Assembly (NCBI RefSeq): GCF_001548375.1
Contig: NZ_AP017295.1
Coordinates: 2,142,501-2,206,500 of the forward strand
DNA: 64,000 bases
Reading direction: 5' to 3'
Source: Nostoc sp. NIES-3756
Lineage (GTDB): Bacteria; Cyanobacteriota; Cyanobacteriia; Cyanobacteriales; Nostocaceae
Under the pieces are notes generated by a model. The model was not told the origin of the DNA. It saw only the letters and a program-made list of their open reading frames with translations, and did no database searches. Of the stretch, positions 37,439-44,233 are shown in pieces. Position 1 is the first letter of the stretch, and each line of letters begins with the position of its first letter. The position numbers and the translations under genes are program-made.

Positions 37439-37901
37439 GGGTAAAAGATTTACTGCTATCTGCCGCATTACTGCAAAGTTTTGTGGAGCATTATCTTTCC
37501 TAATCCGACAGTCATCTTCTTTTAAAGCTATCTAATAACGGCAGTCGCTACAACGGGGGGAACCCCCGCAACGCGCTGCCTCCCCAATGCAATGAATTTT
37601 CTATGCCCCAGTGACTGCGAACAGAATTAGCAAATTGTTTGGCATTATCTTCAAGACTACTAATAAAATAACGAGTCTCTACTCTTGTTTTACCATTTAC
37701 TTGCAGGACGGATTCTACCATCCCAACACTATTAAAGTTTGACCAAACTGAATCAGGGTCAAGCCGAGATTGAATTTCTGATAACATCACATAATTGCGT
37801 ATTTCATGCCGACCATGCCCTGTTTCTTCGGTTTTATATGTGCTATGTTGAAACTCTTGAAAACCCGTACTTATCCCTAATTTGAATAGCTGCTCTAGCA
37901 T
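37436..37901 (-). pseudogene. Remnant of an ISAs1-family transposase
   Basis: The minus strand encodes HGRHEIRNYVML, YFISSLEDNAKQFANSVRSH and WGIENSLHW of the ISAs1 DDE transposase. A GC-rich Nostoc repeat at about 37534-37585 interrupts it (read as GGSALRGFPPL), and the real C-terminus resumes as KEDDCRIRKDNAPQNFAVMR with a stop at 37436. The N-terminal two-thirds, including most of the catalytic domain, are missing. It is therefore inactive and older than the repeat insertion. It marks the left side of the peptide-gene region. Confidence 0.85.
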
Positions 37902-38042: not shown

Positions 38043-38199
38043 GATTATGTTATTATATGCTACTCGTTTTTAGTTTAATGTATTAAACAGAATATTGTTA
38101 TTTTTTGCATATTTTTCATTAACCAAAAGTTATAAATTAATTATATTAATCTCTTACTTTAGAAGAATGAAAAATTACCAAATTAATTAATTATAAATG

Positions 38200-38220
38200 T
38201 ATAGGTGTTATTCACCTATA
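38200..38220 (+). promoter_or_regulatory. Dyad (operator or mRNA hairpin) before the first peptide gene
   Basis: tataggtg-ttatt-cacctata: perfect 8-bp arms, 23 bp ahead of the start codon and just before the gaggtaa ribosome site. Could bind a dimeric regulator or act as a 5' mRNA stem. No equivalent precedes the second peptide gene. Confidence 0.5.
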
Positions 38221-38243: not shown

Positions 38244-38444
38244 ATGTCAAATCAAATCATGCCATTTGTTCAAGATAACGAACTGTTCTCTCAAATGTCT
38301 GCTGAAGAAGCTGCTACCCTCAGTGGTGGTGGACCCGCAGCTGGTGCATACGCAGGTATTTACGCAGTAGGCGGCGGGCTTTTCGGTAGTGCAGTCGCAC
38401 AAGCTGGGATATTAGCGGCTTCACTTAACCCTACCATCGGGTAA
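38244..38444 (+). CDS. Double-glycine-leader bacteriocin-like peptide 1
   Basis: 66 residues. An acidic leader ending in EEAATLSGG is followed by a small, glycine- and alanine-rich hydrophobic core starting after Gly-Gly, with GxxxG-type spacing (GAYAG) and the end ASLNPTIG. This is the layout of peptides exported by peptidase-containing ABC transporters, which cut after GG. No Cys in the core, so lanthionine formation is unlikely. A gtgaggtaa ribosome site precedes the ATG. A 17-bp-arm terminator follows, so it is its own transcript. It is paralogous to the peptide at 38919. Bacteriocin activity is inferred. Confidence 0.75.
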   Translation: MSNQIMPFVQDNELFSQMSAEEAATLSGGGPAAGAYAGIYAVGGGLFGSAVAQAGILAASLNPTIG

Positions 38445-38470
38445 GCTTGTTTCCATAAATTGAGGTCAAG

Positions 38471-38519
38471 AATGCGCCCACCTCACTACTTAAAAGTGAG
38501 TGAGGTGGGCGCATTTTTT
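38471..38519 (+). terminator. Very strong terminator after peptide 1
   Basis: Perfect 17-bp arms (aatgcgcccacctcact / agtgaggtgggcgcatt), 11-nt loop, six T residues after it. Starts 26 bp past the stop codon. Confidence 0.93.
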
Positions 38520-38918
38520 AGACATCTTGTGGCAATAAACAGTTTCTTTCTTAACTGCGTCTTCCCCCACCCATCTATAAGAAATTAAGTTTTTCTGCAA
38601 TTTTTTAAGGGTAAGGAAGTGAATAATTATCTTTATTTCCGGTCAAGAGCGGACTCCAGACTTATTCTGTATGTCTATCAATTCTTATTGCTAGATTGAG
38701 AACATTTTGTATTAAGTATTCACTCAATAAAATTGATTAGACTTTGCTTACAAGGATTCACTATTAAGTTATAAGTGGACAAGAAAAATTGACTATTAAC
38801 AAACATAAAACTTGGATATTTACCTTCATGTTATCTGTGATTAGTAGGGATGTGTATACATTTAGCTATGAAAAGGTGCCACTTCACTCTTAATCCTGAT
38901 TAATTGAGAAAAGACAAT
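38520..38918. other. Spacer between the two peptide genes
   Basis: About 400 bp of AT-rich sequence. No gene or strong structure seen; it must contain a separate promoter for peptide 2, since the terminator at 38471 isolates it. Confidence 0.45.
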
Positions 38919-39113
38919 ATGCTGCAAATTACCGATCTCGAAAATAAGAAACTGTTTAGCGCAATCTCTACTGAAGAATCCACTACCATTAGTGGCGGTG
39001 GGCCGCAATCAGCTGCCTTAGCAAGCATCATTGCAATAGGTAGTGGCATTTTTAACAATGCAATTGTACAAGCTGCGATATTTGCGATCGCACTTAACCC
39101 CACCATCCCGTAA
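38919..39113 (+). CDS. Double-glycine-leader bacteriocin-like peptide 2
   Basis: 64 residues from the ATG at 38919 (a TTG at 38904 is an alternative). Leader KLFSAISTEESTTISGG, then a hydrophobic core ending IALNPTIP. It aligns to peptide 1 without gaps from the GG site to the end: both have a Pro directly after GGG, a GxGxF-type centre and a shared LNPTI end. The nucleotide match continues past the stop (taagcttgtt). The pair thus arose by duplication, and the two different cores suggest a two-component toxin or variant set. No immunity or transporter gene is obvious beside it. Confidence 0.72.
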   Translation: MLQITDLENKKLFSAISTEESTTISGGGPQSAALASIIAIGSGIFNNAIVQAAIFAIALNPTIP

Positions 39114-39167
39114 GCTTGTTTAACTAAATGTCCATTAAAGAGTTATTTGCTAGTGTGGTAAAATTCA

Positions 39168-40060
39168 CTAAAGAAGACGACTCTCTAGGTTAGCTAAGTA
39201 AGCCTTGGGGTCTCGGCGAAATCGATACTGTTCAATTCTGGCTTTGTGGTGTTTTTGCAATTGAGAGCGTAATTCGAGCCAAGTATGAATATCAACTTGT
39301 GCTAAATCAGATGCGGTAAAAGAATGAAGCGAAGTTGCGATGGCGCAAGCGCCCGCCGTAGGCGATGGCGTTCCGCCCAGCGTAGCTGATCCCACAGGCA
39401 AGTTTGACAGAACCACGAATAACGAGGGATGAGGGGGCAACCTTACGACCAGTACAACGACGTTGATGATGACGTAGCATACCAAAAGCATGTTCTAAGT
39501 CATTATTAGTTCTGGGAAAATCTTCAATTTCGTAACAATGAAAAAGTCCAGACCAGTAGTTATTGGTGGTTTTTATAAAGTTATCGATGGCGGTATTTAG
39601 TGTACCAGCTTTCTACTTTTGTTGGGACATTTATGTTAACAGTTGCTGATAACTTTGTTTGACTCCAGCAGCATCAAGAGCTATTTTATTGTTGAGAATA
39701 TTACTAGCTTTATCAACCCAATCATATGCAACCCTAACAGGTGAAAATAAAGATGCAGTCACAGATAATCCCTTGGCTAGGAGGTGTTTTAGGTTAACTA
39801 AAGGTAGTGGTAAAGCACTTTTTTTCCATTCGTTCTAAGCTTTGCTCTATCAATATCAAATTTTCTGGTAACTTTAATCCAGATGCCTCTAATGGTGGAT
39901 GACCATCATTGGTTATAGAACTAAGCACTGCCGAGCAATAATATTCAATAATAGTTGCCATTTCTTGAGTTTCATTGGTAACACTACGTTCAATATCTCG
40001 TAATCGAGAATATTCTCAATTATGAAACACAGTTTTAACTGTTCAGACAATAGTTCTGGT
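39168..40060 (-). pseudogene. Degraded transposase (several stops, repeat insertion)
   Basis: Minus-strand pieces read in order: VRVAYDWVDKASNILNN (about 39720), a stop near 39640, LNTAIDNFIKTTNNYWSGL, EDFPRTNNDLEHAFGMLRHH, RRCTGRKVAPSSLVIRGS, then a HIP-like GC-rich repeat at about 39340-39395, and RSQLQKHHKARIEQYRFR to the final stop at 39168. The PRTNNDLEHAFG and TGRKVA pieces are typical of a cyanobacterial DDE transposase family. At least two stops and the insertion make it non-functional. The start is not defined; the upstream limit is approximate. Confidence 0.75.
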
Positions 40061-40614: not shown

Positions 40615-41955
40615 ATGCCAATGTTCAAACGTCCTCATGCTTCCCAAAGTACTGAAACTGTTAATGGTCAGCCTTCATCTCTTCATGAGTTAAAAGTCTT
40701 GCGTGAACCAAAGTCAGTACGCTCTCTAGCCTCCAATGTAGCAATGATTCTAATCAGTACTGCATTGCTAAGTTGGTCTTTCCACTTCATGAAGGCTCAA
40801 CTAACAACTGTAAATAGCGTTGATGCAGTTATGAACGGTAGGCTGACGGACATACGAGCACAACAAGAAGGTGTGCTTTCAAAAGTTACAGTCAAAACTG
40901 GTCAGTCTATAAGCTCTAAGGAATTGTTATTTGTTATAGAAAATCAACGAGCTAGCCAACTTCAAGCTCAAGAAATTTCTAGTCGCCTGAATCAACAAGA
41001 AGCAGAATTGAGACAGTTAGAAGAACGTTTAGCGCATAAACTGTCACTTCTGAATATAGTAAATCGAGATGCTGTAAACCAAGAGAGGTTGGCAGTCTCG
41101 GAGAATCAACAAAACCAAAAGCAATTACTGTCCGATCTTGAAGCTACAAAGTCGCGTTACAAACTTGCACAATTAAACTATAGGCGAGCAAGGCTTTTAA
41201 AGTCAGAAGGAGCGATTGCCGAAGCCAGCTTTGATGCAGCAGAGGTCGAACTCCAACAACGTGAAAGTGAAGTAAAAAGCCTGCAAGCTAAACTTGCAGC
41301 CTTACAGGTTAACCAAGATGCTGTTCGGAATGGCTTATCCTTATCTAGAACAAGGAGTAACTACGACCCAAGTATTCGTTTAGTAGAATTGCAATTGCAA
41401 ATTGCTGAAGACCAGCAAGGAATTCAAACCTTGAAAAAAAAGATTCAAGGAACTAAAGCAGAGTTTAGTCAGGCAAAGAAAGATTTACAACACAAGCAGG
41501 CTGTGACAATCAAATCACCGGAATCTGGAGTAATGTGGCGGGTGACTGCCCAACCTGGCAAATTTGTGCAAGAAGGAGAATCTCTAGGACAAATTGCGGT
41601 CTGTAATGAACGATGGGTAGATGCTTGGGTGGACGAACAGAAGGTGCAATTACTTCAAGTTGGAACTCCAGCCGAGATTAAGCTAAATGGTACAGCGTCA
41701 TCCATTACCTTTACAGGAAAAATCTCGGTTATCCGTTCGGGGATCGGACGATTGTCTGCCGGAGAAGATACTGTTGTAGCAATGATGCCAAACTTACCAC
41801 GACATACGCAAGTTCAGATTAGATTAGATACCGAACCTAGCCCTTACTCATCCGAGAATATGCGTAATGGCAATCTTTGTTATGTCGGTTATACAGGGCG
41901 GGTAGTATTCAAGGTGCAATCTACCAGTTTTTTGCGGGTTCTTAATTTGCACTAG
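40615..41955 (+). CDS. HlyD-type membrane-fusion protein
   Basis: 446 residues. One membrane helix (VAMILISTALLSWSFHFM, about 42-59) follows a cytoplasmic N-terminus. A split lipoyl domain (DIRAQQEGVLSKVTVKTGQS and TIKSPESGVMWRVTAQPGKF) flanks a coiled-coil hairpin of about 170 residues, and a beta-barrel ends the protein. It may be an exporter adaptor or, given the BcsA-like glycosyltransferase gene 58 bp downstream, an Alg44/HlyD-like conduit for exopolysaccharide, as reported for cyanobacterial cellulose systems. The nearby GG-leader peptides raise a peptide-export option, but no peptidase-ABC gene is present. Confidence 0.85.
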   Translation: MPMFKRPHASQSTETVNGQPSSLHELKVLREPKSVRSLASNVAMILISTALLSWSFHFMKAQLTTVNSVDAVMNGRLTDIRAQQEGVLSKVTVKTGQSISSKELLFVIENQRASQLQAQEISSRLNQQEAELRQLEERLAHKLSLLNIVNRDAVNQERLAVSENQQNQKQLLSDLEATKSRYKLAQLNYRRARLLKSEGAIAEASFDAAEVELQQRESEVKSLQAKLAALQVNQDAVRNGLSLSRTRSNYDPSIRLVELQLQIAEDQQGIQTLKKKIQGTKAEFSQAKKDLQHKQAVTIKSPESGVMWRVTAQPGKFVQEGESLGQIAVCNERWVDAWVDEQKVQLLQVGTPAEIKLNGTASSITFTGKISVIRSGIGRLSAGEDTVVAMMPNLPRHTQVQIRLDTEPSPYSSENMRNGNLCYVGYTGRVVFKVQSTSFLRVLNLH

Positions 41956-42046
41956 TTATTAGTAATTATACTTTTTCCATAAAAACACACTTATTACAGT
42001 TTTTTACTTCCTCTTGCTCAAGGAATTTTCAGTTTTTCATACTATT

Positions 42047-44233
42047 ATGAACAATGACGAAAAACGAACCTCAAAAAGTTTTTTTTCAGGGGTCTGGATA
42101 CTGTTTATCATCAGTGCTATCGTATTTGTATCAACAGTATTTATTAGTACTTGGACAAGCACAGGACCAACACTTTTTCCAACCTATGAAGTTAATCCAA
42201 GTATGACTCGATTATTGCCAACTGTATTACAGATTCCATCCATTGATTGTGAATTATTATTTCCTAATGTTGCTGTTATTTTAGTTTGTGTTTGTCTGCG
42301 GTTTATTCAACCTACAAATGGTACCCGCTTTGTCATGAAATTAATCCTATTATTTCTGGCAACACGTTACTTTATCTGGCGAACAGTTGCCACTTTAAAT
42401 TTTTCCCATCCAGCTAGTGTAGTTTTTTCTTTAACAATTTATATTTTAGAAGTAATTTCCTTTTTTTCTTGCTGTTTATATACACTGCAAACTATTTGGT
42501 CAAACTCCAAAGTACGAAGCGCAGAAGCGAATCAATATTCTCAAGCTGTTCTTTCTGGCCAATATCTTCCCTCAGTTGATGTGCTGGTTCCTACTTATAA
42601 TGAACCAGACTATATTGTTCGCCGAACTATTATCGGCTGTCAGGCAATGGAGTATCTCAACAAAACTATTTACATTTTAGATGATACTCGCCGCCCTCAC
42701 ATTAAAGCACTGGCACAGGAATTGGGATGTGAATACATCACTCGCCCAGATAATACCCATGCAAAGGCTGGTAACTTAAATAACGCGTTGAAGCATATTG
42801 ACGGTGAATTAGTTGTATCTATTGATGCAGACTTTGTGCCATTCAAAAACTTTTTGACTCGAACAGTTGGCTTTTTTCAAAATCCAAAAATTTCCCTTGT
42901 CCAGACTCCACAATACTTTTACAATGCAGACTATCATTCTCGAAATTTAGGGTTAGAAAATTTTCTACCCAATGATTTAGAGCATTTCTATGGATTACAG
43001 CAATCAAATCGAGATGTAGGCAATAGTGTGATTTGCTGTGGCAGTTCCTATGTTGTTCGACGAAGTTGTCTTGATGCCGTTGGAGGTTATTACACTCGAT
43101 GCTGCGTTGAGGACTTTCAAACATCTTTGCGGATGTTGACGCAGGGTTTTCGGCTGATTTTTCTCAATGAAGTTCTTAGTACAGGAGAATCAACTCGAAC
43201 CTATACAGATTTTATCGATCAGCGACTTCGCTGGTTACAAGGAAATTTTCAGGTTTACTTTTGTGGCGATGATATTCCGATTTGGTCGAAACTAAACTGG
43301 ATTCAAAAAAGCTACAGCATATCGCAATTTCTTTATTGCTTTCAATCAGTGTTTCGAGCTGTTTTTATATTGGCACCTCTGTGCAGTGCCTTCCTTGGAA
43401 TTTCACCCTTTATTGCAACCTCGCCTGAAATTCTCTACTACTTCATGCCATTCTGGTTGTTGCATATTGCAATTTATGGTTGGGCATCAAATTACCGAGT
43501 TTCTTACTTTTGGAACGAAGTATACGAAACAATCTTTTGTTTTCCAGCACTCAAGCGATTGTGTCTCATTATCCGCAATCCTTTTGCTAGAGCAAGTCGG
43601 GCTACTCGTAAAGGGGTCAAGGCAGATCGAAAAAATTACAATTTCGATCATACATTGCCACTCATTATTCTTTTAGCATTGTCGGGATTGATTCTTGGAT
43701 TGCATCTTCTTGGGCTACAACTTGGAGTTTGGTTAACTTTGGATGAAAGTTCAAGTGTATTAAGATTCTGGCTTTTCTACAATGCTCTATTTATGGGAGT
43801 AGCTATTCTATCCGCTATCGACCAGCCAATTCGGCGGACAATGGATCGTTTCCCTTTAAAAACAGCTTGTAAGATCACAACTAAAGATAAAGTTTTTTTG
43901 GGTTACACTCAAAACCTTTCTGAAAGTGGAGCTAGAGTGGTATTGATTAAGCCAGATGTCGCCCTCAATACATTGATCGTCGAGATTACATTTTTGGAGT
44001 ATGGTTTTTCCATACAGGCGGAGGTTGTTCGTTATTTTTTTAAGAAAGATGAGTTCGGGATCGCCCTGCAATTTGTCCAGCTTGAAACTGAGCAACAGCG
44101 TAAATTGGTTGAGGTGCTGTATACCGAAATGACTTGGTGGAAACAGCGCAAGAAGCCTGGAACTTTAGACTCTTTTCTAGCGATGATAGCCTCTACCATT
44201 CAAGCAAGACCACTTCTCAATCGGTATCACTGA
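42047..44233 (+). CDS. Cellulose-synthase-like (BcsA-type) processive glycosyltransferase with PilZ domain
   Basis: 728 residues from the ATG at 42047 (a TTG at 42014 is the longer option). Two-plus N-terminal membrane helices, a GT2 domain with VDVLVPTYNEP, DDTRR, the DAD metal site (SIDADFVP), TPQYFYN, VEDFQTSL and the QRLRW product-site motif, further membrane helices, then a PilZ domain with RTMDR (RxxxR) and NLSESG (N/DxSxxG) that should bind cyclic di-GMP. It polymerises a beta-glucan or similar polymer while exporting it through the inner membrane, switched on by c-di-GMP. BcsB, BcsC and BcsZ are absent. The polymer identity cannot be told. Confidence 0.9.
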   Translation: MNNDEKRTSKSFFSGVWILFIISAIVFVSTVFISTWTSTGPTLFPTYEVNPSMTRLLPTVLQIPSIDCELLFPNVAVILVCVCLRFIQPTNGTRFVMKLILLFLATRYFIWRTVATLNFSHPASVVFSLTIYILEVISFFSCCLYTLQTIWSNSKVRSAEANQYSQAVLSGQYLPSVDVLVPTYNEPDYIVRRTIIGCQAMEYLNKTIYILDDTRRPHIKALAQELGCEYITRPDNTHAKAGNLNNALKHIDGELVVSIDADFVPFKNFLTRTVGFFQNPKISLVQTPQYFYNADYHSRNLGLENFLPNDLEHFYGLQQSNRDVGNSVICCGSSYVVRRSCLDAVGGYYTRCCVEDFQTSLRMLTQGFRLIFLNEVLSTGESTRTYTDFIDQRLRWLQGNFQVYFCGDDIPIWSKLNWIQKSYSISQFLYCFQSVFRAVFILAPLCSAFLGISPFIATSPEILYYFMPFWLLHIAIYGWASNYRVSYFWNEVYETIFCFPALKRLCLIIRNPFARASRATRKGVKADRKNYNFDHTLPLIILLALSGLILGLHLLGLQLGVWLTLDESSSVLRFWLFYNALFMGVAILSAIDQPIRRTMDRFPLKTACKITTKDKVFLGYTQNLSESGARVVLIKPDVALNTLIVEITFLEYGFSIQAEVVRYFFKKDEFGIALQFVQLETEQQRKLVEVLYTEMTWWKQRKKPGTLDSFLAMIASTIQARPLLNRYH

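Follow-up and report, generated by a model that had tools for sequence, protein, structure and literature searches.

Double-glycine peptides and C39 exporters are already known from cyanobacteria, and a 2011 survey by Wang, Fewer and Sivonen predicted 290 cyanobacterial precursors (PMC3140520). In Synechococcus elongatus, fragments of the EbfG1-4 peptides are present in the medium and a role in biofilm formation was shown (PMC4997328), and EbfG1-3 form amyloid structures (PMC9981879). The substrate of another C39 exporter, HetC, is unknown (PMC10986499), and orphan C39 substrates are of wider interest. Few cyanobacterial double-glycine peptides have been assigned a function or a trigger.

Here we describe two such genes, A and B, in Nostoc sp. 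NIES-3756. They lie within a stretch of 64,000 nucleotides, called the window below (Table 1). A sequence-only reading had proposed them as a candidate two-peptide bacteriocin. We think that they are probably an orphaned, perhaps decaying, bacteriocin-like pair derived from a peptide system under the control of an ECF-like sigma factor, SIG. The wider proposition, that an ECF-like sigma lineage runs a peptide-arsenal regulon through one 27-bp promoter and that the window pair is a fossil left after loss of the sigma factor, appears to us evenly balanced between right and wrong.

Table 1 Features of the peptide locus, in coordinates of the window
Feature	Position	Strand	Basis
Remnant of an ISAs1-family transposase (profile positions 179-281 of 314)	37548..37901	-	NF033564, 100 bits, cut-off 70
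Repeat common to five Nostocales plasmid records	37926..37980	.	H3, H5, H6, H7, H10
Inverted repeat TATAGGTG-N5-CACCTATA, then AAGTGAGG, upstream of A	38200..38220	.	kept in relatives
Peptide A precursor, 66 aa, leader end SGG, core GPAAGAYAGIYAVGGGLFGSAVAQAGILAASLNPTIG	38244..38444	+	homologues P0002-P0004, 78-80% identity
Hairpin with T run, resembling an intrinsic terminator, in the A-B gap	38468..38519 (stem-loop 38468-38518)	+	folding vs shuffles
Degenerate SIG-type promoter remnant (AGAACATTTTGTATTAAGTATTCACTCAAT), 190 nt upstream of B	38699..38728	+	matrix, 8.2 bits
Conserved untranslated leader ('B-box'), common to SIG-locus peptide genes	38799..38918	+	105/119 aligned bases identical to L065
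Peptide B precursor, 64 aa, leader end SGG, core GPQSAALASIIAIGSGIFNNAIVQAAIFAIALNPTIP	38919..39113	+	homologues P0006-P0008, 83-86% identity
IS-like repeat, onset 22 nt past B	39135..39200	.	7 plasmid records match

Both open reading frames named by the sequence-only reading are present where it placed them, and they encode small hydrophobic peptides without cysteines. For B the ATG at 38919 is the likely start, the TTG at 38904 being the mechanical first start (69 aa). The claim that the two are paralogous duplicates with leaders ending in SGG is borne out: the precursors align at 50% identity with 32 invariant columns, the cores run without gaps up to LNPTI, and the DNA identity extends 12 nt beyond the last core codon (GTAAGCTTGTTT). 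The GxxxG-like spacing described for both cores holds in its strict form in A, with three motifs; B has none and shows small-xxx-small spacing only. Against the homologues in Nostoc sp. LEGE 12450, dN/dS is 0.35 for B (9 synonymous and 11 nonsynonymous changes; Fisher p 0.027, from rounded counts and, like all Fisher values given here, descriptive) and 0.78 for A, a sign of weak constraint. No curated model matched A or B above its cut-off. For A, AlphaFold predicts a helical fold with three helices of at least 12 residues, at low confidence (pLDDT 58), and a PDB search with this model gave no match. Among 72,556 plasmid records there is no copy of A or B at E <= 0.01.

The strong terminator that had been read between the genes is confirmed as a hairpin. 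Its stem-loop has a folding energy of -37.7 kcal/mol, where shuffled sequences average -11.4 (z -10.2), and 0 of 200 shuffles fold as well; a simple terminator scan did not list it. The hairpin arm GGTGGGCGCAT is seen again between the peptide genes of two related loci, L068 and L075. Rfam gave seven weak matches, all below the gathering score and rejected, the best being NrrF (31.4 vs 60 bits) on the minus strand in the hairpin region. The inverted repeat upstream of A is kept before the A-type gene of LEGE 12450 (locus L065) and partly in L068.

IS remnants stand on both sides of the pair, and under the match to the repeat at 39135 three of the seven plasmid records carry an annotated transposase. 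The other neighbours are sugar-type ABC transporter genes (assigned by eye), a HlyD-like adaptor gene and a cellulose-synthase-like gene. The latter two form the stretch 40615-44233: first the adaptor gene (40615-41955), then the cellulose-synthase-like gene, which includes a PilZ domain. No relative of the adaptor turned up at E <= 1e-60 in the remaining 12 genomes of the genus. The statement that neither exporter nor immunity gene is adjacent needs qualification, since the adaptor lies 1.5 kb downstream of the pair; it stands in so far as the window contains no C39 match and no immunity gene was recognised near A and B, where a small immunity protein of a new type would escape recognition by sequence.

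To place the pair among its relatives, direct searches covered 5.8 billion proteins and returned four A-type and four B-type clusters, the window's own included. A profile search reached 62 proteins, mostly unnamed or hypothetical and some named 'Bacteriocin', which is also the UniRef name of several relatives. Among 217 genomes of the family, 30 have a profile match at E <= 1e-4, many of them to the leader only; within the 13 genomes of the genus, full-length matches to the pair are confined to the own genome. LEGE 12450 has both types (L065 9154-9360 for A, from 10099 for B), separated by a further double-glycine ORF. Consecutive locus tags in Desmonostoc muscorum CCALA 125 suggest that the two are adjacent there, and the same is likely for a 1.2-kb contig, a length given for both types.

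That A and B are two distinct partners, as had been supposed, agrees with their separate lineages in the four species that carry pairs of the window's type. The comparison left out P0002 (partner not known), L078b (a near-copy of L078a) and the G204 pair (one ORF recovered, L062). Leaders give 0.69-0.83 for A-A, 0.74-0.85 for B-B and 0.41-0.52 for A-B within a locus. B cores are nearly fixed (B-B 0.86-0.97) and A cores vary (0.38-0.81), with A-B cores at 0.46-0.57; the A core of LEGE 12450 is nearer its own B (0.51) than other A cores (0.38-0.45). Two further core families exist as pairs, one in L068 and L075, the other in L076, L078 and L084. There, too, B cores are the more conserved (0.74 vs 0.57 and 0.52-0.72 vs 0.36-0.50, respectively), and neither the A-A cores nor the A-A leaders are clearly closer than A-B. 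Between the window's A and that of L068 the leaders are 72% identical and the cores 31%; for B the values are lower, 59% and 23%.

These observations bear on the possibility that A and B form a class IIb bacteriocin, that is, that both are expressed and exported and insert jointly as a helix pair into target membranes. Two different adjacent genes with double-glycine leaders and hydrophobic, small-residue cores, whose partners form separate lineages in four species, would suit this, as would the two-gene sets with like cores in L068, L075, L076 and L084 and a distant relative, P0040, which JGI names 'lactobin A/cerein 7B family class IIb bacteriocin' and which passes TIGR03949 (24.9 vs 21.5 bits). 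However, the genes are separated by a terminator-like hairpin, are accompanied by no recognised immunity gene or adjacent exporter and match no curated model above cut-off, and strict GxxxG is absent from B. The lineages also lose their clarity outside the window's type, and within it in the A core of LEGE 12450. The number of genes speaks against the idea as well. With a wider leader regex, every one of 15 related loci (L065-L072, L074-L079, L084) proves to hold between two and seven leader-bearing ORFs, exactly two being present in L067, L068, L075, L076 and L084; many have unlike cores and some end in SGC, so that the notion of just a two-gene system is not supported. Finally, both ORFs recur in relatives, but the Gly-Gly site is only partly conserved, B having GF in two of the four pairs (LEGE 12450 and D. 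muscorum). The earlier proposal thus keeps its leaders, its duplicates and its separate A and B lineages, and loses the support of curated models, an immunity gene and a two-gene rule; we consider it quite unlikely.

Near-identical tandem copies of double-glycine peptides occur in L069 (10093-10823), L078 (9620-10551) and L080 (9834-10306), and in L078 the leaders and promoters ahead of them are repeated too, as if gene and promoter had been duplicated as one unit. In second peptide genes beside SIG (L066 10129, L067 9764, L070 9494) SGC replaces SGG in an otherwise intact leader.

How would the peptides leave the cell? The leaders of A and B look built for cutting after Gly-Gly by a C39-peptidase ABC exporter. 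A matrix built from 15 exporter-adjacent leaders, with a leave-one-out range of 31.7-47.2, gives 29.0 for A, below that range, and 31.7 for B, at its bottom; these scores are equalled by 2 and 1 of 20,000 shuffles, respectively. With four CTB-type leaders as matrix the scores are 16.9 and 12.8, below the exporter-adjacent fit. The genome has nine C39 (PF03412) matches above cut-off, eight of them strong, so distant transporters are available, as the sequence-only reading had surmised; the nearest on the contig lies about 0.3 Mb from the pair. Since the leaders fit the exporter-adjacent set better than the CTB type, the likeliest exporter is a short-type one with a HlyD-like partner (G000:C1:6411466-6415252, locus L027), situated 4.2 Mb along the contig, or 2.2 Mb the other way if the contig is circular. 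It has three double-glycine ORFs directly upstream and the HlyD-like gene downstream, and its relatives in L073, L080, L082, L083 and L122 have peptide genes upstream too. In nine of ten Okeania and Trichodesmium loci (L016-L025, the exception being L019) such an exporter lies downstream of a leader match; as homologues of A and B the matches in these two genera were rejected, having only the leader in common.

An exporter of this type invites comparison with EbfG-like surface or biofilm peptides, which would act as adhesin or matrix and not as weapons. The leaders of A and B do resemble those beside the short-type exporter, and biofilm formation in S. elongatus depends on PteB together with four peptides of this kind (PMC4997328). 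The same article states that mature EbfG1-4 lack homology to other cyanobacterial proteins, so that the parallel is one of analogy. The model of A is helical, if at low confidence, and a promoter common to lasso-type genes points to natural-product peptides instead. We regard a role of this kind as unlikely.

The promoter in question is associated with a sigma gene found beside many of the related peptide genes. Twenty relative loci (L065-L084) were chosen because of their peptide matches, and in 13 of them (L066, L067, L069-L072, L074-L079, L084) the peptides lie beside the ECF-like SIG, which passes TIGR02937 (59.6 bits, cut-off 42.9) and matches Pfam Sigma70_r2. A conserved 234-aa gene accompanies SIG in 12 of the 13, L076 being the exception (L066 5690-6391, with orthologues in L067, L069-L072, L075, L077-L079 and L084). 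The protein of L066 has no Pfam or NCBIfam match and AlphaFold gave no usable model (pLDDT 37); it is a candidate regulator of SIG or immunity factor. No anti-sigma gene was recognised. Downstream of the double-glycine genes beside SIG, seven loci carry devBCA-type exporter genes (L066 11001-14178 and six others), and the copies of L066 pass the DevB, DevC and DevA cut-offs.

With SIG as the query, 59 of the 217 family genomes give a match at E <= 1e-20; in 27 the identity is at least 57%, and all ten genomes with at least 80% identity have such peptides within about 3.5 kb. Twenty more loci (L115-L134) were chosen by SIG similarity only, some of them truncated by contig ends; there the leader regex is positive in three (L121, L122, L128) and finds nothing in 17. 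The same query has no match in the genome of the window, and neither does the 234-aa gene, in a search run without a genome-wide positive control.

Most of the SIG-locus peptides are encoded behind the 27-bp element GGAATATTTTGCATyGAGTATTCGTTA (GGAAT-N17-CGTTA). ECF sigma circuits use promoters of the GGAAC / CGTC type, and we take the GGAAT-N17-CGTT layout to resemble these. Pattern and 14-site matrix both derive from SIG-locus sites, and in a census that allows up to three mismatches 31 copies were found in 21 of 217 genomes, with none in the reversed control. SIG is present (E <= 1e-20) in 19 of these 21, the exceptions being G111 and G133 (LEGE 12450). Conversely, no promoter was found within three mismatches in 40 of the 59 genomes with SIG, or in 8 of the 27 whose SIG reaches 57% identity; among the genomes without such a copy, G157 and G049 have sites with more than three mismatches that are included in the matrix. 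When the 13 site-supplying genomes are excluded, the promoter is present in 8 of the 14 that have a SIG of at least 57% identity versus 2 of 190 others (p 2e-9), a descriptive value for related, non-independent genomes and a threshold chosen afterwards. No promoter within three mismatches exists in the genome of the window.

Downstream of the 31 sites, by our reading, are 12 double-glycine peptides, seven lasso-type genes, SIG itself in two cases and ten other or unassigned contexts: two sites share a single IS-like ORF downstream, four lead to other proteins and four have no clear ORF nearby, three of which point towards SIG. The lasso-type assignment is best supported in LEGE 12450, where the B2 protein reaches 55.1 bits (cut-off 33) and the cyclase-like protein stays below cut-off; it is weak in G091, where neither the cyclase fragment (88 bits) nor the precursor (17.8 bits) reaches its cut-off, and the other five are likenesses by eye. 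The cluster of LEGE 12450 (L065 11936-15210, NZ_JADEXU010000117.1) lies behind a SIG-type promoter copy of 32.7 bits and comprises a 54-aa precursor-like ORF, a cyclase-like gene and a B2/PqqD fusion. ORFs that by eye resemble relaxase and ParA genes share its contig, and SIG has no match in this genome.

From this distribution we infer that SIG reads the promoter. Among the titles and abstract openings surveyed, a scope outside which most subscription papers fall, none concerns such a SIG/peptide regulon, and the word 'sigma' is absent from the available text of PMC3140520; the regulon would thus be the novel part of the picture. The proximity of the peptide genes to SIG and the conserved 234-aa gene, together with the promoter before SIG in two genomes, which makes a feedback loop possible, might also be taken to mean that the peptides are signals, secreted and perceived by the population through a pathway whose output is SIG. 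With no receptor gene recognised, and with a genome that retains peptides without SIG, such a role seems very improbable.

What, then, is left of this system in the window? The best position of the matrix on both strands of the 64 kb is the relic upstream of B, the next reaching -1.05 bits, and it is also the best of the 476,020 own-genome positions scanned (both strands), with one other site at 7.3 bits. Its score is low against the 39-51 bits of the 14 matrix sites, both core boxes being changed (GGAAT to AGAAC, CGTT to CACT), and 3 of 5000 dinucleotide shuffles of the 474-nt gap between A and B equal it. The score alone is modest evidence, so position, orientation and alignment with the SIG-locus leader carry the argument: the stretch from the relic to the ATG of B aligns throughout with that leader. 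A corresponding relic upstream of A was rejected (best position 38106, only -2.0 bits). The LEGE 12450 sequence ahead of the leader of B (-330 to -181) shows no alignment to the window. A pattern search for the B-box found seven copies in 6 of 217 genomes; it misses the own and LEGE 12450 copies and is therefore too strict for a census. An RNA hairpin in the leader was likewise rejected, the consensus folding at -0.27 kcal/mol with five predicted pairs and the window copy no better than shuffles.

A second orphan double-glycine peptide lies 1 Mb away in the same genome (G000:C1:3156290-3156487; L026 6291-6488, minus strand). Its untranslated leader aligns as well and another GG-bearing ORF adjoins it; a promoter relic was sought there and not found (matrix best -2.5 bits).

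The lack of SIG or its partner gene, the degenerate promoter of B, the flanking IS remnants and this second orphan together argue that the pair is an orphan. Much of the same evidence would fit dead remnants, neither A nor B being expressed or secreted any longer: SIG is absent and the promoter degenerate, an IS-like repeat begins just behind B, two relatives have GF in B, one of 13 genus genomes holds the full pair, and A is weakly constrained. Yet neither frame is broken, B shows mild purifying selection, and between the window and LEGE 12450 the 120-nt leader of B (88%) is conserved about as well as the third codon positions (54/64, 84%) and the coding sequence (91%). That leader and frame are still conserved suggests that B may be in use, and we think it rather unlikely that both genes are dead.

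The favoured account, of an orphaned pair, would run as follows. In Nostocaceae-like cyanobacteria SIG would switch on sets of double-glycine peptides through the 27-bp promoter, in some genomes activating its own gene as well and in some also lasso-type clusters. A and B would be exported and cut after Gly-Gly by a C39 exporter; left behind after the loss of SIG, they would now be expressed from another promoter or be on their way out. Loss and decay, rather than re-wiring, is the course we infer. One observation hints at a different history: the A/B-type pair of L068, whose genome does carry SIG, is located on a separate contig from it and lacks a promoter match (best -3.1 bits). Control by SIG may therefore never have applied to the A/B lineage.

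Lasso peptides are often antimicrobial. Because the same promoter serves lasso-type peptides, antagonism, in the manner of bacteriocins, is the likeliest function of the intact system, judged from the company of lasso-type genes and from annotation names. If the account is true, a single tie between promoter and sigma factor would help to tell when such peptides, the lasso-type ones included, are made in many relatives of Nostoc, would predict which orphan copies, like A and B, are likely silent, and opens the question of 'weapon, glue or signal' to a direct test by a sigma mutant.

Compared with the double-glycine precursors of the 2011 survey, A and B are alike in being small, in their double-glycine leader, in the presence of C39 exporters in the genome, in poor core conservation and in their arrangement in arrays. 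That survey restricted its search to 20 kb around each gene cluster (PMC3140520), whereas for A and B the nearest C39 match on the contig lies at the much greater distance given above. With EbfG1-4 and PteB of S. elongatus the pair shares the occurrence of several small double-glycine peptides, whose secretion there needs a C39 exporter (PMC4997328, PMC9981879). In contrast to EbfG, A and B do not lie beside a PteB-like exporter, and the likeness is one of description rather than of aligned EbfG sequences.

Among the curated families, the lactobin A/cerein 7B family of class IIb (TIGR03949) likewise consists of paired double-glycine peptides with small-residue-rich cores; A and B differ in having no match to it, no recognised immunity gene and no adjacent exporter. 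The leader region of A aligns weakly with the CTB family bacteriocins (NF038167, 12.5 bits, cut-off 32). B has no match to this model, and of 19 family members 10 match it to some extent (E <= 1); the CTB leader is of another type than that of A and B. With ECF sigma circuits the proposed system shares a sigma factor that passes TIGR02937 and a promoter with a GGAA-type -35 and a CGTT-type -10 box. Unlike these circuits, SIG comes without a recognised anti-sigma factor, and its apparent targets are double-glycine and lasso-type peptides.
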